From contig JABGPV010000094.1 in NCBI GenBank assembly GCA_018644785.1, forward strand, positions 1 through 16,905: a stretch of 16,905 bases of DNA, in the 5' to 3' direction. The stretch comes from Deltaproteobacteria bacterium (GTDB taxonomy: Bacteria; Desulfobacterota; DSM-4660; Desulfatiglandales; Desulfatiglandaceae). Numbering within the stretch: position 1 is the first letter of the stretch; each line of letters opens with the position of its first letter. Both the position numbers and the translations under genes were made by a program. Of the stretch, positions 797 through 16,905 are shown one piece after another. The notes below the pieces were generated by a model. It was not told where the DNA came from and made no database searches. It saw only the letters and a list, made by a program, of their open reading frames with translations.

Positions 797-1252
797 TTAC
801 GTCTGTAAAGTAATCATTCCGCTTTTTCTGAAATATTTTAAATGTATCAGTTTTTCGGGTTTGACATTCACCATGTGGCAGCCGACTGTATCCACTGCGC
901 ATGAATTGGTACCCATGACAATGGCCCCAATGTGAAAGGGTTTGCATGTAACCATAAAGTTCTACCCGGCAACGATGGCATCCATGGCGATAAACCTGGG
1001 TTGAATCACCTCCTGCAGGTCAGCTATTTTATGTTCAAGAAACTGATTATGGTCGATGAGCCGGTGTGCGTCATCCTGGATGCCGATAAAGTTCTTCAGG
1101 GACATGGTCAGCCTGGTCCAGGGATGAGCCTTTAAACGGGGCAGGTTGATCAGAAAATCCGTCTCGCTGATAGCCCGGGGCACATATATTTCCTCGCGGA
1201 GTGCATCCGGATGTTTCAACTGAAAGGGAACACTTTTTTCCTTGGCGGCCAT
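797..1252 (-). pseudogene. DUF362-family protein relic with in-frame amber codon
   Basis: Reading from ATG 1252 gives 96 residues containing the DUF362 core (ISETDFLINLPRLKAHPWT..MSLKNFIGI), then TAG at 964-962 directly after DAIVAG. The same frame stays open for 54 more residues to TAA at 799-797 and still matches the family (GAIVMGTNSCAVDTVGCHM...LIHLKYF). In intact members the residue after DAIVAG is usually Glu, so GAG to TAG is the simplest explanation. The piece also lacks the N-terminal third (an in-frame TAA lies just upstream) and the C-terminal end. I therefore read it as a decaying internal fragment. DUF362 proteins are often Fe-S linked, but the exact role is unknown. A GGGAG ribosome site remains before the ATG. 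Translational readthrough of the amber codon is the alternative. Confidence 0.7.
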
Positions 1253-2012: not shown

Positions 2013-5000
2013 TCAGGAAGAGCTGTCGTTTTGGGTATAAATAAAGGTCAAATCCGATTTTTGGATCCCCAGCTTTTTCATCCGGTGGCGCAAGGTGCTT
2101 GGTTTGATATTCAAGATTTCGGCCGCCCCGCCCTTGCCGGCCAACTGCCCGCCTGTTTCTTTCAGGGCGCGCAGGATATGGGACCGCTCATTTTCCTCAA
2201 GGGTTGTAATGGCCGAATCGGGATTTCCGTCCGCTGTTTTTAAGCCTGTGTCCGGGAGCTGCAGGTTTGGCCCATGAGAGAGAATGACGCCCCTCTCGAT
2301 GATGTTTTCCAGCTCTCTGATATTCCCCGGCCAATGGTATCCCTTAAGCTTCTCCAGATCCGATTTTGAGATCTGCTCGATTGTCTTCCCCATTTTTTTG
2401 GTGTTGAGCGTGAGAAAATGGTACGCCAGAAGCGGAATGTCCTCCTTTCGATCCCTCAACGCAGGGACATGAATGGGGAAAACGTTCAATCTGAAGTACA
2501 GGTCCTGCCTGAATCGGCCTGCCTGCACCTCTTTTTCCAGGCTCTTGTTGGTCGCGGCCAGCAGTCGAAAATCCGAGCGCAGTGTTTTATGTCCGCCCAC
2601 CCTTTCGAACTCCTTGCTTTGGAGCACCCGCAGCAGCCGAACCTGGGTCTCTGCCGGGATATCACCGATCTCATCCAGAAACAGGGTCCCGCCATCAGCC
2701 AGTTCAAAACGACCCACCGACCGCTCGTAAGCGCCGGTGAAAGCGCCCTTTTCGTGACCGAACAGTTCACTGGAGATCAGGTTTTCTGAAAAGGCGCTGC
2801 AGTTGACCCGTATGAACGGGCGCTCCTTGCGGAGACTGTTGCGGTGAATTGCCCGCGCCACCAGCTCCTTGCCCACCCCTGTTTCACCCTGGACCAGCAC
2901 GGTTGTGTCCGTTTCAGTGACAGATTCAATATGATGAAAAACCTTTTTGATCGCCTGACTTCTACCGACGATGTCTTCGAAGCTCAGGTCTTCCAGGTAT
3001 TGCGCTTTGTAGTATTGCTTCTCCTCTTCCCGCTTTTCGGCCACCTCTTCAAGCGCCTGGTACGCCAGGGCATTATCCATGGCGATGGCTGCCTGGGCCG
3101 CGAAGTAGTTCAATACCTCCAGGTCCGCATCCTGAAAGTCTACCTGGGAACCGAAATGATCGTGATAGAGAACGCCGAAAACGCTGTTTCTGAGAACCAT
3201 GGGCACGCAGATGCAGGCACTGGCGAAATTCCGGGATGATGTCTTTTTTGATTTTGTGGGCTTAAGCACTGTGGCTTGACCACTACCTGAACGTGCGGTT
3301 TCCATGATCATTTTCATGGAATTTTTGAAATCGGATGAGCTGACATCTTCGGGGGTCAGGTTTTTGGAGGCCTGCAGCACAAGCGGTTCTTGATCTTTCT
3401 GCAGTCGAAATATGGCGCCCCGCTCGGCCCCGGTCAGCCGGTTGGCGGTGGAAATAATGCGACCAACCAGTTTTTGGTGATCGCGGACGGTTGTCAGTTC
3501 CTGGCCGAGCCTGAAAATCTCCTTCAGCATCCCTTCACTGGTTCGCAATTCCCTTTCCAGTTGAAAAAGCGCCTTCGGAATCAGGTTCCGGTTAACGGTT
3601 GCCAGGAATTTAATAGACGGATCTCCCAATACCCTGGCCTGCTCCTCATTACCTGATTTCAGGTATTCAGCGGCCAGCTCAAGCCTGACAGTGGAAAGAC
3701 TGACCTTGTGACCGGATACATCCAGCCATTTGAGCGCAGTTTTGTACGCGTTGATCACTTCCCGCTCGGGCGCCCCTGCCCGTTTTTTAACCAGGGCCCT
3801 ATACCGATAGCCCATCCCTTTCATATGCGTATTCGTACTTTTGAGTGCGTTGGAGATGGCCTGCTCGATACTCAAAAACCCCTTAACCGCAGGCAGCTTG
3901 CCCTGCTCCATGAACCAGCTCAGATACATCACCCAGGGGATTTGAGTCGAATGCACCTTGACCTGACTGCGTAATTTTTGAAATTCCGCCAAAGCAGTAA
4001 CTGCGGGCTTATTACGGCCGAGTTTGTGATTGGCATAGGCCAGACAAATTAAAACACCGGCTTTAAAATGAACATACTTTCCCGCTTCCGTTTTTTTGAG
4101 GGCGGATTCCAGGTATGCAACGGCTTCATCGAATCGGCCAATTTCGTTATAAATATGTCCCATGATATATTCAGCCCAGCTGCTGATACGATGGCTTCCC
4201 AGTTTTTGACCAAGATCGATGGTGGCTCTCACCATACCCAGTCCCTGTGAAATCTGACCACAATAAACCAGACAGGATCCGTGCAGGGGGCGTAACATGA
4301 TTGGGACGCCCGCCTGGGGAACCTGGTCGATTTCAGGAGCCAGCTCCTCATAAAGATCCAACCCCTCGCGGTAGTTTCCCTGCCAATAATGGAAGGCCGC
4401 ACTTAAAAAGTTGATGGCCCGTTTGAACCTGCCGTCCGTAATGCCCTCCGCCAGGGCCAGCCCCTCTTCAAAACTGCGCTGGGCAGATTTGAATTCGGAT
4501 CCAAAAAACTCGTACTCGGCCAGATGCATTTTCAGCAGGGCCCGGTACGGCTGGAATCTGGGCTTCTTCGAGCGCTCCAGGGCTCCGTGAATGGCGGAGA
4601 TAACCTGCGCAGACCCCGTCTCATTCAACGATACGACGGCGTACTCTATGGTTGTTTCCAGCAGAAGGCGGTCTGCCTCTTCGCCACTGAGGCGACCCAG
4701 GTCCTCGATGGCTTTGGCATAATAAGCGATGGCCTGCTGCTCTCGGTTTTGCCTGGCCGCCATTTTACCTTCCGCTAATAACCGTCGACAGCCATCGATG
4801 TTGTTCTCAAGGTTTAAAAGAGACTGGGCCAGAAAACTGTTTTTATCCGGATCTTCCAAGACCTCTGCCAGTAAAATCTCTGCAATTATCGCGTAACGTT
4901 TTTTGCGCTCGTTCAAAGAGAGAGAGTCCTTGAGGCGGATCTGCTCCTCAGTATTTACAAACCGATAGAAGCCGGGTTTTTCAGTTGCCAGCCAACTGTT

Positions 5001-5156
5001 TTTCAGCCCCAGATCAAGTGCTTCCAATATAAGCTGTGGCTTGTCCTGGGATAGCCCCTGCAGCCAATTGATGGAAAACTCAAAATCGAAAAGGGCCGCC
5101 AATGCCAGAATGCGTCGATGGATATCCTTATCAGTTGAATGCGCTGCTGTGGTCAT
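2013..5156 (-). CDS. Sigma-54-dependent transcriptional activator with TPR sensor, GAF, AAA+ and HTH domains
   Basis: 1047 residues. Residues 1-95 resemble the winged-helix arm that follows the NTPase in STAND-type regulators (FDFEFSINWLQGL...YRFVNTEEQIRLKDSL), but no NTPase precedes it. About 95-530 are helical TPR-like repeats (for example FGSEFKSAQRSFEEGLALAEG, IGRFDEAVAYLESALKK). About 545-700 are a GAF domain, followed by a charged helix linker. The AAA+ domain starts near 724: Walker A GETGVGK at 757-763, an intact GAFTGA loop at 804-809, Walker B LFLDEIGD near 825-832 and an arginine-finger region FRQDLYFRLNVFP. A Fis-type HTH lies near 1004-1035. The complete GAFTGA means it should contact sigma-54 RNA polymerase and open promoters. 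It is divergent from the symporter gene, which has a strong -24/-12 site, so it probably controls that gene set. The ribosome site before ATG 5156 is weak. Domain order is confident; the signal is unknown. Confidence 0.93.
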   Translation of the reverse strand: MTTAAHSTDKDIHRRILALAALFDFEFSINWLQGLSQDKPQLILEALDLGLKNSWLATEKPGFYRFVNTEEQIRLKDSLSLNERKKRYAIIAEILLAEVLEDPDKNSFLAQSLLNLENNIDGCRRLLAEGKMAARQNREQQAIAYYAKAIEDLGRLSGEEADRLLLETTIEYAVVSLNETGSAQVISAIHGALERSKKPRFQPYRALLKMHLAEYEFFGSEFKSAQRSFEEGLALAEGITDGRFKRAINFLSAAFHYWQGNYREGLDLYEELAPEIDQVPQAGVPIMLRPLHGSCLVYCGQISQGLGMVRATIDLGQKLGSHRISSWAEYIMGHIYNEIGRFDEAVAYLESALKKTEAGKYVHFKAGVLICLAYANHKLGRNKPAVTALAEFQKLRSQVKVHSTQIPWVMYLSWFMEQGKLPAVKGFLSIEQAISNALKSTNTHMKGMGYRYRALVKKRAGAPEREVINAYKTALKWLDVSGHKVSLSTVRLELAAEYLKSGNEEQARVLGDPSIKFLATVNRNLIPKALFQLERELRTSEGMLKEIFRLGQELTTVRDHQKLVGRIISTANRLTGAERGAIFRLQKDQEPLVLQASKNLTPEDVSSSDFKNSMKMIMETARSGSGQATVLKPTKSKKTSSRNFASACICVPMVLRNSVFGVLYHDHFGSQVDFQDADLEVLNYFAAQAAIAMDNALAYQALEEVAEKREEEKQYYKAQYLEDLSFEDIVGRSQAIKKVFHHIESVTETDTTVLVQGETGVGKELVARAIHRNSLRKERPFIRVNCSAFSENLISSELFGHEKGAFTGAYERSVGRFELADGGTLFLDEIGDIPAETQVRLLRVLQSKEFERVGGHKTLRSDFRLLAATNKSLEKEVQAGRFRQDLYFRLNVFPIHVPALRDRKEDIPLLAYHFLTLNTKKMGKTIEQISKSDLEKLKGYHWPGNIRELENIIERGVILSHGPNLQLPDTGLKTADGNPDSAITTLEENERSHILRALKETGGQLAGKGGAAEILNIKPSTLRHRMKKLGIQKSDLTFIYTQNDSSS

Positions 5157-5457: not shown

Positions 5458-5474
5458 TTGGCATGGATATCGCA
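5458..5474 (+). promoter_or_regulatory. Sigma-54 (-24/-12) promoter for the symporter gene set
   Basis: TTGGCATGGATATCGCA matches the YTGGCACGRNNNTTGCW consensus at all but two defined positions, with GG (5460-5461) and GC (5472-5473) separated by exactly 10 bases. Predicted transcription start is near 5485, leaving a leader of about 65 bases before ATG 5551. A sigma-54 activator gene is divergently adjacent, which strongly supports the call. Confidence 0.75.
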
Positions 5475-5550: not shown

Positions 5551-6960
5551 ATGGGTAAAACAGAAGGAAAAATTCCGAAGTTACACATATTGGCATTTGG
5601 CTCCGGCTCTTTACCGGTTAATATGACCTTTGCCATTGTTGTGCTGTACCTGTCCTATTTCTACACGGATGTTTTCGGGTTGCCGCCGGCCATCATGGCG
5701 ATCCTGTTTGTCTCCTGCCGGATCTGGGATGGAATCAACGACCCGATCATGGGGTTGATTGCCGACAAGACCAACAGTCGCTGGGGGAAATACAGGCCTT
5801 ATCTGCTGTTCACACCGATTCCGATGATCATATTCGCCGGACTGACCTTTTATGCACCGGATATGAGCATGACAGCCAAAATCATCTATGCCTTCATCAC
5901 CTACTTTGGATTGCAGATGATCAAAACGGCTGTAGCGGTTCCGTATTTCGCCATGCCGGCGCTGATGACGACAGACGCCACAGAGCGGACGGCATTGTCA
6001 TCGGCAGCCATGATTTTCGGCCCGATCGCTTTTGTCATTGCCAGTACGTTTACGTTAAAGATTGTGGGATTGTTTCCCACTGAAAAAGAGGGGTTCTTCT
6101 TTGCCGCTTTGATATTGGCTGCGTTTTCGTCCATCTTCATGTATATCACCTTTTTTGCGACCAAAAAATATGATTATCCCGGCAACCCTCTGTTCACAAG
6201 ACAGGACTCCGGGAGTCCCGGGACCTTGAGGGATAAGTGGAAGGTCATCAGTCAGAATCGCCCTTTTCTGCTGACCGTAGGCGCTTTCATGGGGCACAAT
6301 ATGTACTCGGCCGTGATCATGGGTATGATCATCTATTTCTTCAAATACAACATCAAAGACTCCAGTATTTATCCCGCATTTTTAGGGGTGATGCTTATCT
6401 CCGCCATGCTCGGGGCGGTGGTCGCTCCACTGCTGGTCAAAAAAATCGGTAAAAAAAATGCCCTGCAAAGTTCCAACGTTTTGACGATTTTGGTAACGCT
6501 TGCCTTGTTTTTTCTTTCCAGCGGCAAGGGAACATCAGAATTGGCCGGTTTGTGGAAAGTCGGAGGCCCCTGTTTCTTCCTGTTTGCCCTGTCCGGCTTT
6601 TTCTCCAATATCACCCCTGTTATTTGTTCGGCCGTGATGGCAGACAGCGTGGATTACGGTGAGTGGAAGACCGGGCTACGGACACAGGGCCTGATCAGTG
6701 CGGTTTTCCTGATGGGCAACAAGGCCGGTATGGCAATAGGCGGCGCTTTTATCGGTCTGGGGCTGGCGTTTATCGACTATGTCCCCAACCTGCCGGAGTA
6801 CCCGTCTGCAACCCTGCAGGGCATCCTGGCGCTGTTTATGCTCGTGCCCCTGGGTTGTCGGATCTTTATATCTGTCCTGATGTGGTTTTACGATCTGTCG
6901 GACGACCGTTTTGCCGAAATCATCGCCGAACTGAATGGCAAAGCGGAGAATGTGAATTAA
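5551..6960 (+). CDS. GPH-family (glycoside-pentoside-hexuronide) MFS cation symporter
   Basis: The product has 469 residues with about 12 membrane segments. Near residues 58-83 it has the GPH signature (RIWDGINDPIMGLIADKT, then SRWGKYRP). A second half-signature VMADSVDYGEWKTG lies in the C-terminal half, also typical of the family. Relatives take up glycosides, sugars or uronides with Na+ or H+; the substrate here is unknown, and in this setting it may be a sulfated or glycosylated compound. I chose ATG 5551 because AGGAGA at 5541-5546 is ideally spaced and the protein then begins like its family. The longer in-frame TTG at 5458 would overlap the sigma-54 promoter and add a non-membrane stretch. 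It is the first gene of the probable sigma-54-driven set. Confidence 0.9.
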   Translation: MGKTEGKIPKLHILAFGSGSLPVNMTFAIVVLYLSYFYTDVFGLPPAIMAILFVSCRIWDGINDPIMGLIADKTNSRWGKYRPYLLFTPIPMIIFAGLTFYAPDMSMTAKIIYAFITYFGLQMIKTAVAVPYFAMPALMTTDATERTALSSAAMIFGPIAFVIASTFTLKIVGLFPTEKEGFFFAALILAAFSSIFMYITFFATKKYDYPGNPLFTRQDSGSPGTLRDKWKVISQNRPFLLTVGAFMGHNMYSAVIMGMIIYFFKYNIKDSSIYPAFLGVMLISAMLGAVVAPLLVKKIGKKNALQSSNVLTILVTLALFFLSSGKGTSELAGLWKVGGPCFFLFALSGFFSNITPVICSAVMADSVDYGEWKTGLRTQGLISAVFLMGNKAGMAIGGAFIGLGLAFIDYVPNLPEYPSATLQGILALFMLVPLGCRIFISVLMWFYDLSDDRFAEIIAELNGKAENVN

Positions 6961-7010
6961 CCCGAACCGCACACTTCAGAACTAGCTGAATTGATGTTTT
7001 TCTCAACAAT

Positions 7011-7160
7011 TTACCACAGAGACTCAAAGAGCACAGAGTTTTATTAGATTTCTATTGAAATGGTTTATAAATACACGAAATGCAATCCGGAAAAACCTAA
7101 AAAATGGGAACAGATCTTAAAATTTTTTCTCTGTGTACTCCGTGCCTCTGTGGTGAAAAT
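7011..7160. repeat. Inverted pair of CACAGAG-type repeats between symporter and STAS genes
   Basis: The left arm (7011-7043) reads ACCACAGAG-N10-CACAGAG. The right arm (about 7122-7160) is the reverse complement of ACCACAGAG-N10-CACAGAG with the same spacing. The roughly 80 bases between them are AT-rich and without a gene. I recall similar CACAGAG motifs scattered in many bacterial genomes, so this is probably an interspersed repeat that landed inside the gene set. The arms could fold in mRNA and reduce readthrough to the STAS gene. Confidence 0.6.
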
Positions 7161-7177
7161 GTTCTGAATAGGTACCT

Positions 7178-7453
7178 ATGATTTTTTTAAAAGAGACATT
7201 CCTGGAAGACGGCACTGTCTCCATCCAGATTGAAGGGAGACTTGACAGCCACTCCATATCCTCCCTGCGGGATTTGTGTGCGGGTCATCTCGGGGAGAAG
7301 AATCTTCGGTTAAACCTGGAAAAGGTTGACCGCATCGACAGGGATGGCCTGGACTACCTGCGCTCAATTAAAAAAAAGGTGCTTCTTGAGGGGTTGAGTC
7401 GGTATCTCACCCTTGAATTGAACGAAACTGAAATAAAAGGAGAAAGCACATGA
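7178..7453 (+). CDS. STAS-domain protein (anti-sigma-factor-antagonist-like)
   Basis: 91 residues forming a single STAS-like fold: a VSIQIEGRLDSHSISSLRDL start, then NLRLNLEKVDRIDRDGLDYL. The D-S-S-G loop that carries the phosphorylated serine in SpoIIAA-type proteins reads D54-R-D56-G here, so the phospho-site position is Asp. It therefore cannot be switched by a serine kinase in the usual way and may mimic the phosphorylated state or act as a simple binding module. Its TGA overlaps the sulfatase ATG as ATGA (7450-7453), indicating translational coupling. The ribosome site before ATG 7178 is weak (TAGGT). STAS domains also occur as transporter partners, so a role with the symporter or sulfatase is possible. 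Family call moderate; role unknown. Confidence 0.65.
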   Translation: MIFLKETFLEDGTVSIQIEGRLDSHSISSLRDLCAGHLGEKNLRLNLEKVDRIDRDGLDYLRSIKKKVLLEGLSRYLTLELNETEIKGEST

Positions 7454-9114
7454 AATGGAAAAAGTGGTTAATTGGCTTGTTGTTGGTGGTTGTCGCATTT
7501 GTCATCGCTGCACCCCGAATTAAGAACTTCTTGATCCTGAATTCAACCCAGATTCGCCTTTTTTTCAAGCCCATCCCCCCAAACCAGGAAGTGGTCTGGG
7601 AGAAGGGGCCGGCTGTTGCTGAAAAGACGCCCGAGAATCGCCCCCCCAATGTGGTCCTGATCCTGGCTGACGACCTGGGCGCCAATGACCTGACATTCGC
7701 GGGTGGCGGAGTGGACAACGGTTCGGTTCCAACACCCAACATCGATTCCATCGCCCGGGAAGGGGTCAGTTTCAGCAATGGTTATGCCGGACATGCCACC
7801 TGTGCCCCATCCCGATCAGCTGTCTTGACCGGTCGTTACGGCAGTCGCGTCGGTTTTATCTCCACACCGGGACCGGCAATCGCCTGGAAATTTGTGGCTG
7901 AACTGCAGAAAGACGCCACCCGTCCGCCAACTTACATTGAGGAGCGGGCAGACGAGGTTCCCGATTCCACAGAAATGGGGCTGCCGCCGGAGGAGATCAC
8001 CATTGCAGAACTGCTCAACGAAAATGGCTATCATTCGGTGATGGTGGGGAAATGGCACCTGGGGATGTCAAAAGGTATACTTCCCAGCGACCAGGGGTTT
8101 GATGAGTTCGTGGGACTCACAGGCGGTGCCTCCCTGTACGCGCCGGTGGACAGCCCTGACTACGTCAATGCTGTTGTGGACTTTGACCCCATCGATTATA
8201 TGCAGTGGAAACTGACCACCTACCACGTTAAAACCAGCACCGGTGGTCATTTCGAACCCAGGGGTTATGTGACGGATTATTATGCGGAAGAGGCCGTTAA
8301 AGCCATTGAGGCCAATAAAAACCGGCCCTTTTTCCTCTACCTGGCCTTTAATGCCCCCCACTCACCGCTGCAGGCTACCAAAGCGGACTATGATGCGCTT
8401 TCTCATATCAAGGACCACAGGTTGCGTGTCTATGGTGCCATGATCCGGGCTCTTGACCGCGGCGTGGGGCAGGTACTTGACACATTGAAACGGAATGGTC
8501 TGGAAGAAAATACCCTGGTTATTTTCGCCAGCGACAATGGCGCCCCGGGATACCTGGGATTGCCTGACCTCAACAAACCTTTCAGGGGCTGGAAAATGAC
8601 CTTCTTCGAAGGCGGTCTCAATGTGCCGTACTTCATGAAATGGCCGGGACGGATACCTAAAGGAGCAACTTACGACAAACCCGTCCTGCATCAGGATATT
8701 TTCTCAACTGTGGCTGCTGCTGCCGGAAGCCCTCTACCGACTGACCGGAAGATTGATGGTGTGAACCTGCTACCCTATGTTAATGGCCAGGTCAACGGAA
8801 GACCCCACGAATCCCTTTTCTGGGACGGTGCGGTTTATCAAAGCGTGATGGTCGGCGACTGGAAATACCAGGTTGATACGCGAACGGGGAAACACTGGCT
8901 GTTTGATATGAAAGCGGATCCTACGGAACAGATTAACCTGGCAGACACCCGGCCTGAAAAACGGAAGGAACTGGAGACCGCCCTGGCTGATTTCAATCGC
9001 ACCGAAAAAGCCAAGCCGTTATGGCCGTCGCTGCTTGAATGGCCCGTCAGAGTCGACGAAACCCTGGACCAGTCCTGGGAAGAGAGCGATGAATACGTGA
9101 CTATAGCAAATTAA
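7450..9114 (+). CDS. Cys-type sulfatase (arylsulfatase family), membrane-anchored
   Basis: 554 residues. Residues 5-21 form a single hydrophobic segment (signal anchor), placing the enzyme outside the cytoplasmic membrane. The alkaline-phosphatase-fold core starts with VVLILADDLG (metal ligands D74, D75). The sulfatase signature HATCAPSRSAVLTGRYG has C118-x-P-S-R, where Cys118 would be oxidised to formylglycine by an anaerobic maturase. MVGKWHLG and IFASDNGAPGY supply further active-site residues. It hydrolyses a sulfate ester; aryl, sugar or steroid sulfates are all possible. No maturase gene lies in this window. AAAGGAG precedes the ATG, and the start overlaps the STAS stop. The RdhA-like gene follows after 16 bases, so the two should be co-transcribed. 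Family is very sure, substrate unknown. Confidence 0.95.
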   Translation: MKWKKWLIGLLLVVVAFVIAAPRIKNFLILNSTQIRLFFKPIPPNQEVVWEKGPAVAEKTPENRPPNVVLILADDLGANDLTFAGGGVDNGSVPTPNIDSIAREGVSFSNGYAGHATCAPSRSAVLTGRYGSRVGFISTPGPAIAWKFVAELQKDATRPPTYIEERADEVPDSTEMGLPPEEITIAELLNENGYHSVMVGKWHLGMSKGILPSDQGFDEFVGLTGGASLYAPVDSPDYVNAVVDFDPIDYMQWKLTTYHVKTSTGGHFEPRGYVTDYYAEEAVKAIEANKNRPFFLYLAFNAPHSPLQATKADYDALSHIKDHRLRVYGAMIRALDRGVGQVLDTLKRNGLEENTLVIFASDNGAPGYLGLPDLNKPFRGWKMTFFEGGLNVPYFMKWPGRIPKGATYDKPVLHQDIFSTVAAAAGSPLPTDRKIDGVNLLPYVNGQVNGRPHESLFWDGAVYQSVMVGDWKYQVDTRTGKHWLFDMKADPTEQINLADTRPEKRKELETALADFNRTEKAKPLWPSLLEWPVRVDETLDQSWEESDEYVTIAN

Positions 9115-9130
9115 CTATATGGAGAAGAGC

Positions 9131-10459
9131 ATGTCGTTGGAACAGGAAATAAAGGATTTTGTAAATGGGTTGGGAATCGATGTTGTGGGTGTTGCCGGAC
9201 CCGGTCGGTTTGACGGGCCGCCGTCGCTGGATCTGAACTATATTTTGAAAGGGGGGAAATCGGTTATCACCTTTGCCATCCCCTTCGATGTGGAGGCACT
9301 CTACTCTTATCTAAGCCGTAAGAGCGCGATACCCCACAATATTGACCAGTACCGGGTGCACCAGCGGGTGATTCATGCAGCGGAAAAGCTGAAAAAATTT
9401 CTGGAGGCCAAAGGTCACCGCGCAGCGCACATTGCCCCCAATGCCGGTTACCGCAAAGACCCCAAAAGTACCTTTGCCCTGATGCCCCAGTTTTCCCATC
9501 GTTACGCCGCATACGTGACAGGGATTGCAGCCCCTGGCATTTCCGGCAGTGCAGTTACCGAGAAGTATGGTGGGTCCGTCTGCCTGAACAGCGTTATCAC
9601 CGATGCGGTACTGGAAGGGGATCCCATGCTTCCGCCGCGGCATATCTTTGATGGGCTCTGCCAGGAGTGTATGGCCTGCACCGAGTCCTGCCCTCCCAAG
9701 ATGTTCATGAAGACAACCGAGGAGTACTCCCTGATCAACGGTCAGTTTTATCCCCGGGGCAAAAAACGGGATACCAACCTCTGTGCTGTCTCCTGCGGAG
9801 GTCTGCACGCGATCTCTGCGGATAAGACCTGGTCAAACTGGGGCAAGGGGTGGATCGACAGCTGGACCGGTGTGGAACCGGATCCGGAGAAGCAGAATAT
9901 TGGAGCGGATATGCGCCGGGTGTTCGGGTTCAACCAGGATCTGCCGGCCCGTATTTCCCCAATCGCTGTTGTCGTTCAGGATGCGATCGAAGAAGGGTTT
10001 TTTGAAGAGGGAGGGCCCTTTCCCTCATACGAAGAGCTGGAAGGCGAGACGGAGGGCCAGAAATTGCGCAGTTTTGCCGATGCCATCGAAAAGCATGTCA
10101 CAGATAATGCGATTGCTGATCCACTGGCCCTGACCTGCAACCAGTGCAACGTGGTTTGCGGGCCTACAGCAGAGGAATCAAACAAGCGCTGGCAGATGAT
10201 CAAAAAGGGCGGAATTCTCACATACAAAGAGAACAATGAGCCCTGCTGGGTCCATGATTTTCCGGAAGCGGAACAGATGCGCAAGGACTATCAATATAAG
10301 GTTAAGAAGCAGGTGGTGAAGGAGGTCAATGGGCGAAGATTTAAAATATTAACGAAACACCTGGGGATCGATTTTCACACCATTTTTAAGGGCAGGAGTT
10401 ACAAGAAAAAGCTGAACAAGGCACTGAACGCGGCGGGTCTGCCCCCGCAGGATTTCTAA
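9131..10459 (+). CDS. Cytoplasmic RdhA/QueG-like corrinoid and 4Fe-4S protein, copy 1
   Basis: 442 residues, no Tat signal or membrane segment. The N-terminal half resembles the corrinoid-binding domain of epoxyqueuosine reductase and reductive dehalogenases (GIDVVGVAGPGRF; KYGGSVCLNSVITDAVLEGDP). The Fe-S part has C177-x2-C-x2-C-x3-C187-P. Then come C218-x3-C222 in a position like the lone cysteine of the family, with W-rich text after it (TWSNWGKGWIDSW), and C336-x2-C-x3-C343-G-P. That supports two 4Fe-4S clusters and corrinoid reductive chemistry in the cytoplasm. True QueG is shorter and would not sit in such a cluster, so another substrate is likely. The start is ATG 9131, with GGAGAAG at 9121 placed correctly and the N-terminus aligning with copy 2; the ATG at 9119 overlaps that ribosome site. 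Reaction unknown. Confidence 0.8.
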   Translation: MSLEQEIKDFVNGLGIDVVGVAGPGRFDGPPSLDLNYILKGGKSVITFAIPFDVEALYSYLSRKSAIPHNIDQYRVHQRVIHAAEKLKKFLEAKGHRAAHIAPNAGYRKDPKSTFALMPQFSHRYAAYVTGIAAPGISGSAVTEKYGGSVCLNSVITDAVLEGDPMLPPRHIFDGLCQECMACTESCPPKMFMKTTEEYSLINGQFYPRGKKRDTNLCAVSCGGLHAISADKTWSNWGKGWIDSWTGVEPDPEKQNIGADMRRVFGFNQDLPARISPIAVVVQDAIEEGFFEEGGPFPSYEELEGETEGQKLRSFADAIEKHVTDNAIADPLALTCNQCNVVCGPTAEESNKRWQMIKKGGILTYKENNEPCWVHDFPEAEQMRKDYQYKVKKQVVKEVNGRRFKILTKHLGIDFHTIFKGRSYKKKLNKALNAAGLPPQDF

Positions 10460-10655
10460 GGGTCGGCTTATCAATTGGCCCACCTTCTGTTTGCAAAATG
10501 TTCAGTTAAAGGTCGGCTAAAAGATTAGTTCACATTCTGTTTGTAAAATGTCTGGCTGATTGGACTTTTTCAAACAGACAAAGTGAAGTTATCTTTTAAC
10601 GATCCCCCTTGTACTTTTGCAAACAGATTAGGTGGCGTTATTGATAAACGATCCC
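10460..10655. repeat. Nested-hairpin intergenic element A (two direct arms and their two inverted partners)
   Basis: Four arms of about 41 bases: arm1 10460-10500, arm2 10510-10550, arm2' 10566-10606 and arm1' 10615-10655. Arm1 and arm2 are diverged direct copies (GGTCGGCT ... CTGTTTG); arm2' and arm1' are their inverted partners ending CGATCCC. The structure is an inner hairpin (arm2/arm2') inside an outer one (arm1/arm1'). TTATCAAT at 10468-10475 pairs with ATTGATAA at 10640-10647, while the homologous arm2 bases TAAAAGAT pair with ATCTTTTA: the sequence changed but pairing is kept. It begins one base after the stop of RdhA-like copy 1. A related single hairpin lies at 14190-14286 in opposite orientation. 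Confidence 0.85.
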
Positions 10656-10681
10656 TAAGGGGCGGTTGAGCCAAAACGCAC

Positions 10682-10720
10682 AGATCACGGATATTCGGTA
10701 CTGTAGAAAATCTGTGATCT
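10682..10720. repeat. Imperfect inverted repeat around the AGATCAC motif
   Basis: AGATCACGGATATT (10682-10695) and AAAATCTGTGATCT (10707-10720) pair at 12 of 14 positions around an 11-base loop, about 30 bases before the ATG of RdhA-like copy 2. It may be a leader hairpin, an operator, or another interspersed repeat; motifs of this kind are common between genes in many genomes. Confidence 0.45.
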
Positions 10721-10750
10721 CAATGAGGATGTCAAAATAGGGGTAAAAAT

Positions 10751-12094
10751 ATGCAAACACTGGAAGAGAAGATCAAGAATTTTGTGAAGGAACAGGGGAT
10801 TGAAGTCGTGGGTCTGGCCGGGCCGGAGCGGTTCAAGGGACCCAAACCCCCCTCCATGAACCCGGCGTATATTTTGAAGGGAGCCAAATCCATTGTCTCA
10901 TTTGTGATGCCGATGAATGTTGAGGCGATATACGACTGGTTCACCAAGAAAAGCAATGTGACGCACCAGGTGGACCAGACCAATCTCAATCAGGAGATGG
11001 GGCAAAAGTCTAAAGCAATTGCCGAATTTATTCAGAACATGGGGTACAAAGCCAAAGCCGTGGGGACCAACAACAACTATCGTCGCTCGCCGGATGTGAT
11101 GTCCACCAGGCCGGAGTTTTCTCATCGATTTGGTGCCATCGCTGCCGGGGTTGGGGGGCAGGGATGGTCCGGCAATATCATGACCAAAGCGTATGGTGCA
11201 GCTGTTTACCTGGGTACGGTGGTGACCACTGCAGAGTTGAAAAGCGATCCGGCCCTCGACCCCCGGTATTTTATCGAAGACTACTGCTACAAATGCCGGT
11301 TATGTGATAAAACCTGTGTCTCGGGCATGTTCGATTCCCAGGAAGAGGAGTATGTGCTGTTGAATGAGGACCTTCACCCACGTGCAAAGCGTATCAGTAT
11401 CGATCTTTGCAATACCTCATGCTTTGCCCTGCACTCCCTCTCCCGGGATAAAAAATGGAGCACCTGGGGCATTCATTGGATCGACTCATGGGTCGATAAT
11501 CCACCGGTGGATGGTGAAAATGCCAGAATCAAGAAGGATCTGATCATCAAAGGCACCCAGATCGGCGATGCAACCCCCAAATATGACATTATCCGGCATA
11601 TTACCAATACAGTCATCCCCGATGATTTGATGGCGGAATACAACGAGAAGATGTCTTCTTTAAAAACGCAAAAGGAACGAAACGCGTTTCTCAGCGATTG
11701 GGCGGAACGAATCGGAGTGAAAAATGTGAAGGAGGATCGCTTCCTGGTTTGTGGAAATTGTGCCCTGATTTGCGGTCCAACCCTTGAAGAGACGCGCAAG
11801 CGTTATGACATGCTGGTCAATTCCGGAATTGTGATTCCGGGTCCCGATGAGGAGAATCTTATTGTGCATTCGTACGAGGAAGCAGTTGAAAAGCGGCAGG
11901 AGCACTTTCCTAAGGTAACAAAAGCGGAGATGGCAAAGGATGCCGCAGAATCGGCGGCTCTCTGGGCAAGACTCTATCTGGGGACCAACCCCACCGAGGA
12001 GCATAAGGGCAGAGTCTATGAAAAGCAGAGATTGGCGGCAGTCAAAAAGTTGGAAGGCCAAACCAGGATTTCGGATGGTAAGACAGCAAAATGA
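10751..12094 (+). CDS. Cytoplasmic RdhA/QueG-like corrinoid and 4Fe-4S protein, copy 2
   Basis: 447 residues and a clear paralogue of the preceding RdhA-like protein: the same start (EKIKNFVKEQGIEVVGLAGPERF), the same corrinoid-domain landmarks (SHRFGAIAAGVGGQGWSG, AVYLGTVVTTAEL) and the same cysteine layout. Cluster cysteines are C179-x2-C-x2-C-x3-C189, followed by Val instead of the usual Pro; then C220-x3-C224 with KWSTWGIHWIDSW; then C334-x2-C-x3-C341-G-P. It has no export signal. ATG 10751 follows a TAGGGGT ribosome site. The divergence between the copies (many changes but all cysteines kept) suggests an old duplication, and they may act as a heteromer or on successive substrates. Copy 2 is separated from copy 1 by 291 bases of repeats, so it may have its own expression level. 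Reaction unknown. Confidence 0.8.
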   Translation: MQTLEEKIKNFVKEQGIEVVGLAGPERFKGPKPPSMNPAYILKGAKSIVSFVMPMNVEAIYDWFTKKSNVTHQVDQTNLNQEMGQKSKAIAEFIQNMGYKAKAVGTNNNYRRSPDVMSTRPEFSHRFGAIAAGVGGQGWSGNIMTKAYGAAVYLGTVVTTAELKSDPALDPRYFIEDYCYKCRLCDKTCVSGMFDSQEEEYVLLNEDLHPRAKRISIDLCNTSCFALHSLSRDKKWSTWGIHWIDSWVDNPPVDGENARIKKDLIIKGTQIGDATPKYDIIRHITNTVIPDDLMAEYNEKMSSLKTQKERNAFLSDWAERIGVKNVKEDRFLVCGNCALICGPTLEETRKRYDMLVNSGIVIPGPDEENLIVHSYEEAVEKRQEHFPKVTKAEMAKDAAESAALWARLYLGTNPTEEHKGRVYEKQRLAAVKKLEGQTRISDGKTAK

Positions 12095-12286
12095 AATCGA
12101 CGTGACGGGAAAGCAGCAACTCTCTGGAACCGCATACGATGCGGAACTTAACCGACGTCAAAATGGGATAACCGGCACTGTCTTTTTGAATCTCATTGGC
12201 TGATAGACATATTGCAACAATAGGAATAGTACTTTGTTAAACGACTGGTAAATACTGGATTTTCATCAATAAACACGGAGTTGAAT
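12095..12286. other. Intergenic gap with a small hairpin (12130-12144)
   Basis: This 192-base gap holds one clear structure, CCGCAT-ACG-ATGCGG, a perfect 6-bp stem with a 3-base loop. It lacks a U-tract, so it is not a convincing terminator. No sigma-54 match and only poor sigma-70 matches were seen before the acyl-CoA synthetase gene, so readthrough from upstream is likely. Confidence 0.4.
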
Positions 12287-14134
12287 ATGAGTGCACCTGT
12301 AACCAAAAATATCGATCATCAAAGAACCCTGAGTTTCAGCGAGGTATTCCCGAAAATCCTGGGCATGATTCCCAGGATACCAAAATTCGCCAAGACATTG
12401 AAGAAACTGCTGAGCCTCACCGATGAGGATCCGCTGTCACTCGGGCGTGTTATCGAGGAGGTTGCCGTGACCTACAAGGATCGCACGGCGCTGTTGTTTG
12501 AGGACCAGTCCTGGACCTACCACCAGTACAACCAGGAGGCCAATCGACTGGCCAATTATCTGCTCTCCCGGGGGGTGAAAAAGGGGGACAACATCGTCAG
12601 TTTCATCAACAATCGCCCGGCCCTGCTGTTTACCATGGCGGCGGCGGCCAAGATCGGTGCCCGAGTCTCGCTGATCAATTTCAATCTCCGGAAAAAGGTG
12701 CTGAGTCACTGCGTCAACATCATGCCGATCAAACTCTACCTGGTTGACGAGGAGCTGGTGGATGCCTTTGAAGAGATTCGATCTGATCTGCCGGAGAGCG
12801 CCAAAGGCAACCTCTATTTCTATCCGGACGCCGGCACCCGGGAGGCCCCGGAAGGCTATCATGATATGAAACAGGGAATGGCAGCTGAATCCGACCTGAA
12901 TCCGCCCACCACCAATGATATTGTACTGGGTGACGGTATCTGCTACATCTTCACCTCGGGCACCACCGGATTTCCCAAGGCCGCTCCGCAGTTTCATCGC
13001 TCCATGTACCGGGCAGCCACGTTTATCGGTTCCCTGGTTCTGAATATCAAAAAGGAGGACCGCGTCTATGTGGTCCTGCCCTTTTTTCATTCCAACGCCA
13101 TCAAACTCTCCTGGATGAGCACCTTCTCGAAAGGGGCCACCCTGATTATGAAGCGGAAATTCAGCGCCAGCAGTTTCTGGGATGACGTCCGCAAGTACAG
13201 GGCCAACACCTTTATCTACATCGGTGAATTGTGCAGCTACCTCATGAACCAGCCGGAAAAGGAGAGCGACAAGGACAATACCATTGAGAAGATCCTGGGC
13301 AACGGCCTGCGGCCTGAAATCTGGAAGAAATTCAAGAATCGTTTTCAGATTTCACGGGTGATGGAGTTTTATGGGGCCTCGGAGTCCAATGGCGGCACAT
13401 TCAATCTCCTGAACCTGGACGAAACCGTGGGGATGGCGCTCGAAAGCCATACCATTGTCGAGTATGACATCGAAGAGGAGGCCTTTGTCCGGGATGAGAA
13501 CGGTTTCTGTAAAAAGACGCCGAAGGGCGGAGCCGGCATGCTGTTGTGGGAACTGCCGGATGGTAAGGACCAGTTCACGGGTTATACGGATCCCAAGGAG
13601 AGTGAAAAGAAGATCCTGACCGATGTGTTTGCCAAGGGAGACCGCTGGTTCAACACCGGTGACATGATGCGGGTGATGGGATTCAACCACTATCAATTCG
13701 CCGACCGCATGGGGGATACCTTCCGCTGGAAAGGGGAAAACGTAGCCACCCACGAGGTGGAAGAGACCGTCAACGCCTTTGCCCAGGTGGCGGAATCGAC
13801 CACCTATGGCATCTCCATGCCGGGTTCGGATGGACGGCTGGGGATGACCTCCGTGATTCCCTTCTGCCCCTTCGAAGAGTTTGACCTGGCCGGATTTGCG
13901 GAACATGTCACCAAAGCCCTGCCTGCTTATGCAGTACCCCGCTTCCTGCGCTTCAAAAAGGAGTTTGAAACCACTGCCACCCACAAGATCAAGAAGGTCC
14001 AACTTCAGCAGGAGGGATTTGATATCAAGACGGTCAAGGATCCCCTTTACGTCCTGATTCCCGGGCGTGATGCCTTTGAACCCCTGACGGATGCGCTGTT
14101 TGCCGAGATCCAGGACGGGAAATACAATTTTTAA
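12287..14134 (+). CDS. Long-chain/very-long-chain acyl-CoA synthetase, FATP type
   Basis: 615 residues, usual length for the FATP/VLACS branch of ANL adenylating enzymes. The AMP-binding motif YIFTSGTTGFPKAAPQFH starts at 220. MEFYGASESNGG is the A5 region, and GDMMRVMGFNHYQFADRMGD with FRWKGENVATHEVEETV (D473 onward) is the FATP-type A7/A8 hinge. The C-terminal HKIKKVQLQQEGFD and the closing DPLYVLIPGRDAFEPLTDALFAEIQDG text are characteristic of FATP relatives. It activates a carboxylic acid with ATP and CoA through an acyl-adenylate. Here the substrate could be a fatty, steroid-side-chain or other bulky acid. The start is ATG 12287, with GGAG at 12277-12280 six bases upstream; an in-frame TTG at 12281 lies inside that spacer. 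It probably supplies the CoA ester for the pathway of this cluster. Confidence 0.92.
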   Translation: MSAPVTKNIDHQRTLSFSEVFPKILGMIPRIPKFAKTLKKLLSLTDEDPLSLGRVIEEVAVTYKDRTALLFEDQSWTYHQYNQEANRLANYLLSRGVKKGDNIVSFINNRPALLFTMAAAAKIGARVSLINFNLRKKVLSHCVNIMPIKLYLVDEELVDAFEEIRSDLPESAKGNLYFYPDAGTREAPEGYHDMKQGMAAESDLNPPTTNDIVLGDGICYIFTSGTTGFPKAAPQFHRSMYRAATFIGSLVLNIKKEDRVYVVLPFFHSNAIKLSWMSTFSKGATLIMKRKFSASSFWDDVRKYRANTFIYIGELCSYLMNQPEKESDKDNTIEKILGNGLRPEIWKKFKNRFQISRVMEFYGASESNGGTFNLLNLDETVGMALESHTIVEYDIEEEAFVRDENGFCKKTPKGGAGMLLWELPDGKDQFTGYTDPKESEKKILTDVFAKGDRWFNTGDMMRVMGFNHYQFADRMGDTFRWKGENVATHEVEETVNAFAQVAESTTYGISMPGSDGRLGMTSVIPFCPFEEFDLAGFAEHVTKALPAYAVPRFLRFKKEFETTATHKIKKVQLQQEGFDIKTVKDPLYVLIPGRDAFEPLTDALFAEIQDGKYNF

Positions 14135-14151
14135 GCGCTTTGTGTCGAATG

Positions 14152-14171
14152 CCCCGCGGCTTGCTGCGGGG
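14152..14171 (+). terminator. Possible weak terminator hairpin after the acyl-CoA synthetase gene
   Basis: CCCCGC (14152-14157) pairs with GCGGGG (14166-14171) around an 8-base loop, 17 bases after the stop codon. The following TAGTTTACTATTT is only modestly T-rich, so it may be a partial terminator or an mRNA 3'-end stabiliser. Confidence 0.4.
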
Positions 14172-14189
14172 TAGTTTACTATTTGCATA

Positions 14190-14286
14190 GGGATCGTTTA
14201 ATGATACCGTCACTTCATCCGTTTGCAAAAGCCCCAAAGGACGGGCATTTTGCAAGCGGAATGTGACCTAATCAATAAGCCGACCC
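14190..14286. repeat. Single-hairpin intergenic element B, related to element A but inverted
   Basis: The left arm 14190-14231 starts GGGATCGTTTA and ends GTTTGCAAAAG. The right arm 14246-14286 starts CATTTTGCAAGC and ends AAGCCGACCC. The arms fold on each other, with the stem continuing through GCCC/GGGC at the tip. Its two unlike ends, GGGATCG and CGACCC, are those of element A in reverse order, so the element is oriented oppositely. It ends three bases before the AGGAG ribosome site of the Fe-S protein gene and would form a large hairpin in that leader. Confidence 0.8.
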
Positions 14287-14299
14287 GTAGGAGAATAAA

Positions 14300-15376
14300 A
14301 TGGAACCGAATGAACTATATGGAAGACTGCGCGAGCACCTGAACAATTTTCTGATGGGAATGCCCCACGAGCCCACCCTGATGCAGATGCTGAAGGTGAT
14401 GTTTCCGCTCGATGAGGCGGAGATTGCGCTTAAAATTCCCATGGCAGATACAAAACTCTCCGAGCTGGAACAACAGTTTCCGGAGGTGGACAACCTGGAA
14501 GAGATTCTGATGCGGATGGTTGATCGTGGTACGGTTTTCTGGAATCAGGCCCCGGGTAAGGAGAAGGTGTACCGGCTGATGACAGGCGTCGGCGGCTGGG
14601 CAGAGACCCCTTTCTGGGGCGGCAGGGACACCCCCCAGGCACGGGAGATGGCCCCGCTCTATAAGAATATGAAAACGCTGGCGTACAGTAAAGCGTTGGC
14701 AGAGGGTGCGCCGCTGGTGAGGGTGATTCCGGTGATGGAGTCGCTGGAGGACAGCTCCGCAGTCCTTCCGTATGACGAGTTGATTCCCAAAATCGAAGCC
14801 ACCAAATTCAGGGCGGTGGCTCACTGCCCCTGCCGACACGCTGCCAACTTGAGAGGTGAGGGGTGCGATCACACCGTGGATAACTGCCTCCACTTCGGAA
14901 CCTTTGCCCGCTTCATGGTGGAGCAGGATATTGCGCGGGAGATCAGTGTGGAAGAAACCATAGATATTCTGAAAGCCGCCCGATCGGAAGGGTTGGTCCA
15001 CGTGGCCAACAACATGGACGGTCACCTGGAATCGATCTGCAACTGCTGCACTTGTGGCGACTGTTACTGGCTGAATACAGCAAAAGACATTAATAGGGAC
15101 GTACTGATGGAATCCAATTATGTGGCGAAGGCGGACGAGGATACGTGTACACTATGTGGTGAATGTGAGGAGCGCTGCCCCATGGAGGCAATCGAGGTTG
15201 ACGGTCACGATTGCGCCGAGGTCGATGCCAAGCTTTGTATCGGTTGCGGGGTCTGTACCATCTGTGATGAAGAAGCGATCAAGCTGGTGCCGCGGGAAAC
15301 CATCAAAACGCCGCCAAATTTGATGGAATGGGCGAGTCAGCGCATGGAAGCCTTCAAGCAGAGAAAGAGCGAATAG
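14300..15376 (+). CDS. Multi-cluster 4Fe-4S protein (ferredoxin-like electron carrier or oxidoreductase subunit)
   Basis: 358 residues. About 1-165 lack cysteines and are helical (EPTLMQMLKVMFPLDEAEIALKI; ELEQQFPEVDNLEEILMRMVDRG), resembling a winged-helix start. The middle has C176-P-C178-R and then GCDHTVDNC, followed by the dense C247-x-CC-x-C-x2-C255 group. The C-terminus is a ferredoxin domain: C283-x2-C-x2-C-x3-C293-P is normal, but the second motif reads C313-x2-C-x2-C-x2-C322-D, one residue shorter and without the proline. It probably passes electrons in the cytoplasm, possibly to the two RdhA-like proteins, which need low-potential electrons; that link is inferred from position. AGGAG at 14289 gives a good start. 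The large hairpin element just upstream may tune its translation. Confidence 0.85.
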   Translation: MEPNELYGRLREHLNNFLMGMPHEPTLMQMLKVMFPLDEAEIALKIPMADTKLSELEQQFPEVDNLEEILMRMVDRGTVFWNQAPGKEKVYRLMTGVGGWAETPFWGGRDTPQAREMAPLYKNMKTLAYSKALAEGAPLVRVIPVMESLEDSSAVLPYDELIPKIEATKFRAVAHCPCRHAANLRGEGCDHTVDNCLHFGTFARFMVEQDIAREISVEETIDILKAARSEGLVHVANNMDGHLESICNCCTCGDCYWLNTAKDINRDVLMESNYVAKADEDTCTLCGECEERCPMEAIEVDGHDCAEVDAKLCIGCGVCTICDEEAIKLVPRETIKTPPNLMEWASQRMEAFKQRKSE

Positions 15377-16393: not shown

Positions 16394-16905
16394 TCAGGAT
16401 GTTCTCCGCCATCTCTCCTTTGCCCATCCGCGAACGGTTAGCAGGAAATCATAGATTGCACCGATGGGGCAGAGAAATCGGCACCAGGGTCGTTTAACCA
16501 GAAAAGAGCTGATCAGCACCGTTCCCAACAATCCGAATTGAAAGGGGCTGCCCTCAAGGTCAAACATTGTTCCGAAGACTTCATAACTTGAAATCCCCGG
16601 ATTTCTAAAGAGCAGGGCTGCCAGGACGGCAGTGAGGGCCAGTCCACGGGGCAGCCAGCGGAAAAATTCCGCAAACCGTTTGGGGCTGCGGGATTTGGCG
16701 CCGCCGATCATCCCCAGGGTTTCCTGGATTGCACCGAAAGGGCAGATCCACTGGCAATAAGGATTTTTTCCCTTAATCAGAAACACCAGCAGGAAAAATC
16801 CGAACAAGGTGTACCAGTAGAGGCTGTTTTGCCACTGCGGCCAGAATCCCATCAGCATTTTGGTCATGAAGGGCAGTGTCAACAGACTGGTATAGATGAA
16901 ACCCA
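16394..16905 (-). CDS. NosR/NapH/RdhC-like membrane polyferredoxin, C-terminal part (truncated by window edge)
   Basis: The frame is open to the window end and gives the last 169 residues; the start lies outside. It has several membrane segments and two C-x3-C-P motifs, YCQWICPFGAIQE and WCRFLCPIGAIYDF, at residues 50-55 and 141-146 of the visible part. The text SYEVFGTMFDLEGSPFQF between them is typical of NosR and RdhC-type proteins, which carry an FMN-binding domain further upstream (not visible). These proteins move electrons through the membrane to periplasmic metalloenzymes. Since an exported RdhA lies elsewhere in the window, an RdhC-like role is attractive, but NosR or a general quinol-linked carrier remains possible. 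No classical ferredoxin domain follows the second motif. Confidence 0.85.
   Translation of the reverse strand, partial: GFIYTSLLTLPFMTKMLMGFWPQWQNSLYWYTLFGFFLLVFLIKGKNPYCQWICPFGAIQETLGMIGGAKSRSPKRFAEFFRWLPRGLALTAVLAALLFRNPGISSYEVFGTMFDLEGSPFQFGLLGTVLISSFLVKRPWCRFLCPIGAIYDFLLTVRGWAKERWRRTS

Follow-up and report, generated by a model that had tools for sequence, protein, structure and literature searches.

The 16,905-nt stretch analysed here (the window), from contig JABGPV010000094.1 of a Deltaproteobacteria bacterium, carries at positions 5551-15376 a block of seven co-directional genes, all on the + strand, in which a type I sulfatase gene directly precedes the first of two genes, rdh1 and rdh2, for reductases of the vitamin B12 type. 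The block is real and is recurrent in part: the pairing of a sulfatase-type gene with a relative of these reductases is found again in distant bacteria and suggests an undescribed breakdown of natural compounds, probably ones with both sulfate and halogen. The seven-gene set described in the initial annotation was present with the identities, coordinates and domains assigned to it, the open reading frames being real and the domains confirmed by profile scans (Table 1). The core inference of that annotation, that a sulfated substrate, corrinoid and Fe-S dependent reduction and activation with coenzyme A (CoA) belong together, is supported by recurrence of the pair at seven of 20 related loci and at both of two loci found later, and it is likely that the sulfatase and the reductases act in a common function.

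The intergenic spacings are, in block order, 217, -4, 4, 291, 192 and 165 bp; the STAS-domain and sulfatase genes overlap by 4 bp, and 4 bp separate the sulfatase stop (9114) from the rdh1 start (9119). These spacings indicate that the sulfatase gene and rdh1 are tightly coupled, and that rdh2, the ligase gene and the Fe-S protein gene may have promoters of their own.

Linkage of the reductases to sulfatase-type and dehalogenase genes

Linkage was assessed at 20 loci with a full-length-type member of the reductase clade, comprising 18 loci (17 match rows, and one broken gene covered by two rows) kept after 8 of 27 rows, which were short forms or matches to the N-terminal half, had been dropped, and two loci from a wider draw; the window was not counted, and the two loci found later were counted apart. 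A gene matching PF00884, PF01663 or PF14863 lies within 3 kb of the reductase gene at seven loci (G001:C100, G002:C128, G003:C190, G004:C129, G007:C81, G008:C198 and G010:C29), compared with 0.49 expected from random placement using each genome's own gene counts (P 1.6e-7). With a 5 kb radius 0.72 are expected (P 2e-6), and with orthologous loci collapsed 4 of 17 remain linked against 0.44 expected (P 7e-4). The partners are unrelated to one another: a type I sulfatase in G001 and G004, a phosphodiesterase-like protein of the alkaline-phosphatase fold in G002 and G003, and, in G007, G008 and G010, an alkylsulfatase of the metallo-beta-lactamase fold together with phosphodiesterase-like genes and a second metallo-beta-lactamase protein. 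The G007 alkylsulfatase scores 105.2 bits with PF14863 (cut-off 26) and 35.4 bits with PF14864 (cut-off 27), its orthologues in G008 and G010 also exceed the PF14863 cut-off, and PF14863 alone accounts for 3 of the 20 loci, all of one lineage.

Both loci found later have a sulfatase-type neighbour. The row in G407 runs reductase, DUF2804, a sulfatase (identified through its 44% identity to the scanned G004 stretch) and a metallo-beta-lactamase protein. In G680 a DUF169-like protein and an alkylsulfatase-like protein (70% identical to that of G010) stand on one side of the reductase and a PF01663/PF00884 protein on the other. G407 is similar to G004 and G680 is of Dehalococcoidia type, and the two are therefore not fully independent of the first set. 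In Dehalococcoidia loci the alkylsulfatase-reductase pair is adjoined by DUF169 proteins (PF02596), identified by scan in L055 and by clustering in L052, L054 and L076.

A second link is to haloalkane dehalogenases (NF002043, cut-off 265), for which the gene directly downstream of the reductase in G012 scores 390.5 bits and the gene adjoining the reductase in G008 scores 358.5 bits, with an orthologue in G007; in each of the three genomes this is the only copy at E<=1e-40. This adjacency, chosen post hoc, has P 2e-5 when counted as 3 of 20 loci and P about 1e-3 when counted as two lineages. Two contigs of G007, C81 and C105, break off within the dehalogenase gene, the two pieces matching positions 724-969 and 1-722 of the G008 gene with contig ends that do not overlap, and G008:C53 is collinear across the junction. 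Judged by this synteny, the two contigs would form one island holding a metallo-beta-lactamase protein, a transporter, phosphodiesterase-like genes, a reductase, the alkylsulfatase, a CoA ligase, a short-chain dehydrogenase/reductase, an Fe-S protein, the haloalkane dehalogenase and a second, broken reductase. The initial annotation had left open whether a halogen, a hydroxyl or an ether group is removed; the dehalogenases near the clade in G012, G008 and G007 favour an aliphatic halogen. A hydrolase at L049 was rejected as a further dehalogenase (44 bits with NF002043).

Other partners are less specific. Six other locus stretches carry AMP-binding ligases, 20-26% identical to the ligase of the window, and eight carry acyl-CoA dehydrogenase-like genes, as judged by clustering with scanned members; both are common families, and the counts are given without enrichment. 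An SCP2 protein stands directly before a short clade member in G004 and, by clustering, directly before the long member in G012. The window Fe-S protein has relatives no more than 5 kb from the reductase gene at 5 or more of the 20 loci (1.13 expected, P 0.004) and no more than 3 kb away at 3 or more (0.78 expected, P 0.04); the family is too large for this adjacency to be taken as strong evidence. It is expanded to 65 matches in G015 and to 26-29 in G001, G009 and G011.

The closest relatives of rdh1 are metagenome proteins (P0002-P0010, 63-80% identity), and no relative of the reductases was found in viral contigs. Scanning the genome collection revealed 14 loci in 13 genomes, which by title are metagenome-assembled genomes (MAGs) of Deltaproteobacteria-type, Chloroflexi/Dehalococcoidia and Actinomycetota; seven of the 14 titles name what we take to be a lake, bog or fen. 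In wider draws, centre genomes included, the family is sporadic, being present in 3 of the 395 genomes drawn for the G001 phylum and in 4 of the 393 drawn for the G008 class, with up to 4 candidates scored per listed genome in these two large draws, and it occurs in all 3 genomes of the small phylum of G012. Among genome loci the closest relative of rdh1 (74% identity) is L001 2498-3826, and here too a sulfatase lies nearby, at a distance of about 2.0 kb. This reading frame contains one in-frame TAG in the MAG, for which an assembly error, a pseudogene or recoding is possible, and intact relatives exist. G001 holds one gene of rdh1 type and one of rdh2 type, on different contigs. Five rdh1 relatives (P0021, P0022, P0025, P0031 and P0032) have longest contigs of identical length, 62,414 bases, a hint that several copies may be arrayed on a single metagenome contig. 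Short relatives of about 280-360 aa, mainly the N-terminal B12 half (L043, L044 and L046), adjoin long members in G003, G004 and G006. At L040 (G015:C93:62001-82000) a clade member shares a 20-kb stretch with two RdhA proteins and an Fe-S protein of the twin-arginine translocation (Tat) type, and with an MMPL-like transporter and a phosphotriesterase-like protein, both named by eye; an Fe-S relative lies on this stretch as well, and the G015 genome is 8.9 Mb in size and has 4 RdhA matches over the cut-off.

A reductase clade that mostly lacks the usual tyrosine

The rdh1 and rdh2 products are 35% identical to each other and lie far below the thresholds of both neighbouring families: with TIGR02486 (respiratory RdhA, cut-off 160.35) they score 19.4 and 33.7 bits, and with TIGR00276 (QueG, cut-off 200) rdh2 scores 27.5 bits and rdh1 has no match at E<=0.001. 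Inspection by eye of the N-termini (MEKSMSLEQEIKDF and MQTLEEKIKNF) showed no Tat signal, the DYH motif of QueG (100-102 in St QueG) is replaced at positions 80-82 by VHQ in rdh1 and LNQ in rdh2, and profile alignment of the clade to Escherichia coli QueG is weak (24.8% probability). A confident structure model has the fold of a cobalamin/Fe-S enzyme, with the cobalamin-binding fold of class III. The clade separates from respiratory RdhA and from QueG in a tree whose sequences did not include NpRdhA; its long branches (QueG, canonical RdhA and short forms) meet, and the branching order among these was not used. A recent tandem duplication was rejected as the origin of the pair, rdh1 and rdh2 falling in separate supported subclades.

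For the active site, 205 full-length members (415-500 aa) were aligned, 14 of 219 proteins outside this range being left out; all came from the matches listed, one listing giving 120 of 315 matches. PceA numbering was checked through a canonical RdhA of G015 and then mapped by profile alignment, and positions below are those of rdh1. Nine cysteines are invariant in all 205 members (CX2CX2CX3C at 181-191, C222/C226 and CX2CX3C at 340-347), which is a cysteine set for two [4Fe-4S] clusters, as in class III; Arg112, Pro123, Arg128 and His230 are also invariant. From the fold and these residues, both proteins are predicted to bind a cobamide and two [4Fe-4S] clusters.

The tyrosine above the corrin is conserved as Tyr246 in PceA and Tyr101 in QueG and is present also in NpRdhA, according to the accessible text of PMC4646009. 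The equivalent position in the clade, 81, is Asn in 146 members, Tyr in 32, His in 13 and other residues in 14, so that the catalytic tyrosine is absent from it in 173 of 205, including rdh1 (His) and rdh2 (Asn). Taking 79-83 as a whole, 34 of 205 members have a tyrosine and rdh1 and rdh2 have none, and since this wider interval gives the same outcome, a shift of the alignment by one or two positions leaves the result unchanged. The equivalent of PceA Asn272 is position 109 in the profile alignment (Asn in 127 of 205), with uncertain gap placement; the adjacent position 108 is Asn in 176 and Ser in 29 members, and a gap-free mapping of Asn272 to 108 was not relied on. PceA Arg305 corresponds, in a gap-free stretch, to position 155, where 146 of 205 members have Tyr and none has Arg; two QueG structures of the PDB have Tyr there, and E. 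coli QueG has Phe. In the region of St QueG Asp130, where gap placement is again uncertain, neither rdh1 nor rdh2 has Asp at 107-110, 50 of 205 members have Asp at 110, and an inserted loop at 113-122 holds one Asp in each of rdh1 and rdh2. All 29 members with Ser108 also have Tyr81 and Leu127, indicating that two active-site types exist, Tyr81-Ser108-Leu127 (29 of 205) and mostly Asn81-Asn108-His127; the former occurs at L045, L049 and L050, three loci without a neighbouring sulfatase.

A reading of rdh1 and rdh2 as ordinary RdhA or QueG proteins was not borne out, because both lack the catalytic tyrosine. They are a new variant of the class III cobalamin/Fe-S enzymes, outside the defined RdhA and QueG families, whose relatives carry database names such as 'ferredoxin' or 'epoxyqueuosine reductase'.

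Other genes of the block and flanking features

The sulfatase carries CAPSR at residues 118-122 within a PF00884 domain and is of type I, C-x-P-S-R being the formylglycine motif of these enzymes; it is probably periplasmic, as judged from its N-terminus, and its nearest PDB relatives are carrageenan S1 sulfatases. The symporter is nearest in the PDB to MelB and then to the lysolipid symporter MFSD2A, and the ligase matches FATP2 (389.8 bits) and no other PDB entry at E<=1e-30. For the symporter the better start is ATG 5551, preferred over TTG 5458, and for the ligase ATG 12287. The Fe-S protein is a candidate electron donor; its structure model (pLDDT 57.8) was not used for fold search.

Table 1 Features of the window
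Feature	Position	Strand	Basis
Tat-type RdhA-like protein, N-terminal part, truncated at window end	2..670	-	SRRELIKLVSAAGAGA in sequence; weak TIGR02486
DUF362 remnant, 96 aa, between Tat RdhA-like gene and regulator	962..1252		covers only profile positions 85-167
Sigma-54-dependent activator (TPR-GAF-AAA-HTH_8), divergent, candidate regulator	2013..5156	-	PF00158 243 bits; GAF; HTH_8
Possible sigma-54 promoter, TGGCAT-N5-TCGCA	5459..5474	+	keeps GG-N10-GC, 2 mismatches
GPH:cation symporter (MFS_2), importer candidate	5551..6960	+	TIGR00792 340.7 bits, cut-off 231.35
Small STAS-domain protein	7178..7453	+	PF01740 27.3 bits, cut-off 22.6
Type I sulfatase, formylglycine-type, N-terminal hydrophobic segment	7450..9114	+	PF00884 197.2 bits, cut-off 25
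rdh1, Tat-less RdhA/QueG-like, 446 aa	9119..10459	+	H81/N108/C155 type
rdh2, deep paralogue, Tat-less RdhA/QueG-like	10751..12094	+	N81/N108/Y155 type
FATP-type long-chain acyl-CoA ligase	12287..14134	+	NF006134 706.2 bits, cut-off 625
Multi-cluster Fe-S protein, Fer4 domains	14300..15376	+	PF00037 26.5 bits, cut-off 21.1
Membrane protein, 175 aa	15800..16327	-	no Pfam family match
Fer4_5 protein, cut by window edge	16394..16903

The sigma-54 promoter proposed in the initial annotation has the right shape and lies in the right place, between the divergent sigma-54 activator and the symporter gene, but the window contains 7 consensus matches with up to 2 mismatches against 10.2 expected by chance, and the site was rejected as evidence. 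Scans of the window for sigma-70 promoters and terminators gave 14 against 10.7 and 10 against 12.4 in shuffles and were not used. Beyond the regulator, the truncated Tat-type protein has weak similarity to two of the canonical RdhAs compared, and the DUF362 remnant is probably a decayed gene. The membrane protein downstream of the block has a relative, with 40% identity across 100 aa, adjoining the Fe-S gene of a Dehalococcoidia locus (L051, G008).

Proposed function and alternatives

The block is tentatively read as a route for catabolism of the sulfate esters of lipophilic (long-chain or alicyclic) compounds with a reductively removable group, most likely an aliphatic halogen, a reading in which our confidence falls a little short of even. 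The sulfatase would strip the sulfate outside the membrane, the symporter would take up the desulfated product, and the ligase, clear as to family and presumed as to substrate, would form the CoA ester. The cytosolic reductases, with their predicted cofactors occupied and the Fe-S protein as putative donor, would then catalyse a two-electron reductive elimination at cobalt, and beta-oxidation could follow removal of the group; the order of steps is likewise presumed. Elimination of a vicinal pair would be chemically attractive without a tyrosine acid, because a dihalide needs no proton.

Chlorosulfolipids combine a long chain with aliphatic halogen and sulfate and, in the accessible part of PMC13413282, are described from freshwater chrysophytes and mussels and now from Eastern Pacific coastal water. 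The correspondence is suggestive and does not establish the substrate, and an undescribed anaerobic pathway for chlorosulfolipids, algal alkyl sulfates with a long polychlorinated chain, in which unrelated sulfatases would be joined to tyrosine-less reductases removing vicinal halogens or halohydrins before beta-oxidation, is regarded as a long shot; within it, the Asn81/Asn108/His127 and Tyr81/Ser108/Leu127 types would mark elimination and hydrogenolysis enzymes, respectively. The chlorosulfolipid and danicalipin literature, searched with most subscription journals outside the search, turned up no microbial-breakdown paper among those listed, and the main text of PMC13413282, the paper with the most mentions, contains no word beginning 'degrad' or 'dehalogen'.

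Several observations weigh against a sulfated, halogenated lipid as the substrate. Conservation in relatives extends to the sulfatase-reductase pair, the full seven-gene set being present at none of 22 related loci; 10 of 20 loci lack both a sulfatase-type gene at up to 3 kb and a haloalkane dehalogenase at up to 5 kb from the reductase gene, and no such dehalogenase adjoins the reductase at 17 of 20 or occurs in the window. The collapsed linkage test weakens at 5 kb (P 0.003), PF00884 alone, the sulfatase family named in the initial annotation, gives 2 of 20 against 0.18 expected (P 0.013), and the proteins matching PF01663 could be phosphodiesterases. The linkage P values are post hoc, PF01663, PF14863 and NF002043 having been picked after the neighbourhoods were seen, and they assume random placement, without a matched control of other catabolic genes, while catabolic genes cluster. 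The Fe-S family has 5-65 copies per genome, its adjacency being modest, and the sulfatase nearest to sugar (carrageenan) sulfatases adjoins a transporter of melibiose type; given these nearest relatives, with MFSD2A following MelB, a glycosidic substrate is left open. The same likenesses, with the 165-291 bp gaps between the later genes, the missing conservation of the full set and the modest signal of PF00884 alone, would fit chance neighbours, a sulfatase and symporter for a sulfated sugar beside reductases for corrinoid redox, detoxification or another task. Such an arrangement is improbable in view of the 4 bp between sulfatase stop and rdh1 start, the recurrence of the linkage in unrelated genomes with unrelated sulfatase types, and the sulfatase near the closest rdh1 relative at L001.

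Two further alternatives keep the module and change the group removed. The bond broken by the reductases could, as in the QueG reaction on its epoxide, be a C-O bond in a sulfated lipid such as a sterol or bile alcohol, and the group an epoxide, an allylic hydroxyl or an ether; no halogen would then take part. This is unlikely, although the FATP family includes bile-acid ligases, position 155 is predominantly Tyr and never Arg, as in the two QueG structures and in contrast to PceA, and members in G004 have SCP2 and two adjacent acyl-CoA dehydrogenase-like genes, with clustered homologues in G012. The haloalkane dehalogenases adjoining the clade argue against it, as do the absence of DYH at 80-82 and the scores of the three scanned dehydrogenases, all below the curated cut-offs, including those of steroid models; the position equivalent to 155 is Phe in E. 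coli QueG, and the likeness in Tyr155 is therefore not general. Halogenated aromatic sulfates such as algal bromophenol sulfates, handled by an arylsulfatase, cytosolic debromination as by NpRdhA or the Comamonas enzyme and CoA activation, are more doubtful still: catabolic cytosolic RdhAs act on halogenated aromatics in the accessible parts of PMC4646009 and PMC4959651, and an RdhA-like gene of Tat type lies at the window's edge, but the ligase is of long-chain/FATP type, related loci hold alkylsulfatases and haloalkane dehalogenases, and rdh1 and rdh2 do not retain the Tyr and Arg of PceA.

Alkyl sulfate (sodium dodecyl sulfate) clusters of the SdsA1 type combine alkylsulfatase with fatty-acid activation, as here, and to our knowledge include no cobamide reductase. 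QueG differs from rdh1 and rdh2 in meeting the TIGR00276 threshold, in carrying DYH and in its tRNA modification context. NpRdhA and the Comamonas enzyme, for which group removal for carbon use is proposed (PMC4646009, PMC4959651, as far as their accessible text goes), likewise lack a Tat signal and have the same predicted core of cobamide and two [4Fe-4S] clusters, whereas rdh1 and rdh2 lack the Tyr and Arg positions, are shorter than the NpRdhA chains of about 700 aa, are linked to sulfatases and a CoA ligase, and belong to a clade separate from the canonical RdhAs compared. As described in the available sections of PMC4959651, the DEH-C11 clade of marine Dehalococcoidia is Tat-less, without an RdhB found, proposed to be non-respiratory and related to the NpRdhA and Comamonas RdhAs, with no sulfatase link; the comparison is by description only. 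Desulfatiglans SAG2, likened by description and not by sequence, has, like the window, a pair of neighbouring Tat-less rdhA genes that fall outside the branch of known organohalide respirers, and its genome group also holds sulfatases, treated in a separate section, with no sulfatase-rdhA genomic linkage described in the accessible text (PMC6129605). Searches on reductive dehalogenases with sulfatases or with haloalkane dehalogenases, on alkylsulfatases with dehalogenases and on sulfated organohalides did not find the gene partnership among the papers listed, in a literature that left out most subscription journals.

If the proposed catabolism of sulfated, halogenated lipids is correct, sulfate-ester and organohalogen turnover by anaerobes would be joined in one pathway, and the Tat-less 'RdhA/QueG-like' clade would gain a function. 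Its natural class III cobalamin enzymes without the presumed proton-donor tyrosine would also make the question of the proton donor testable.

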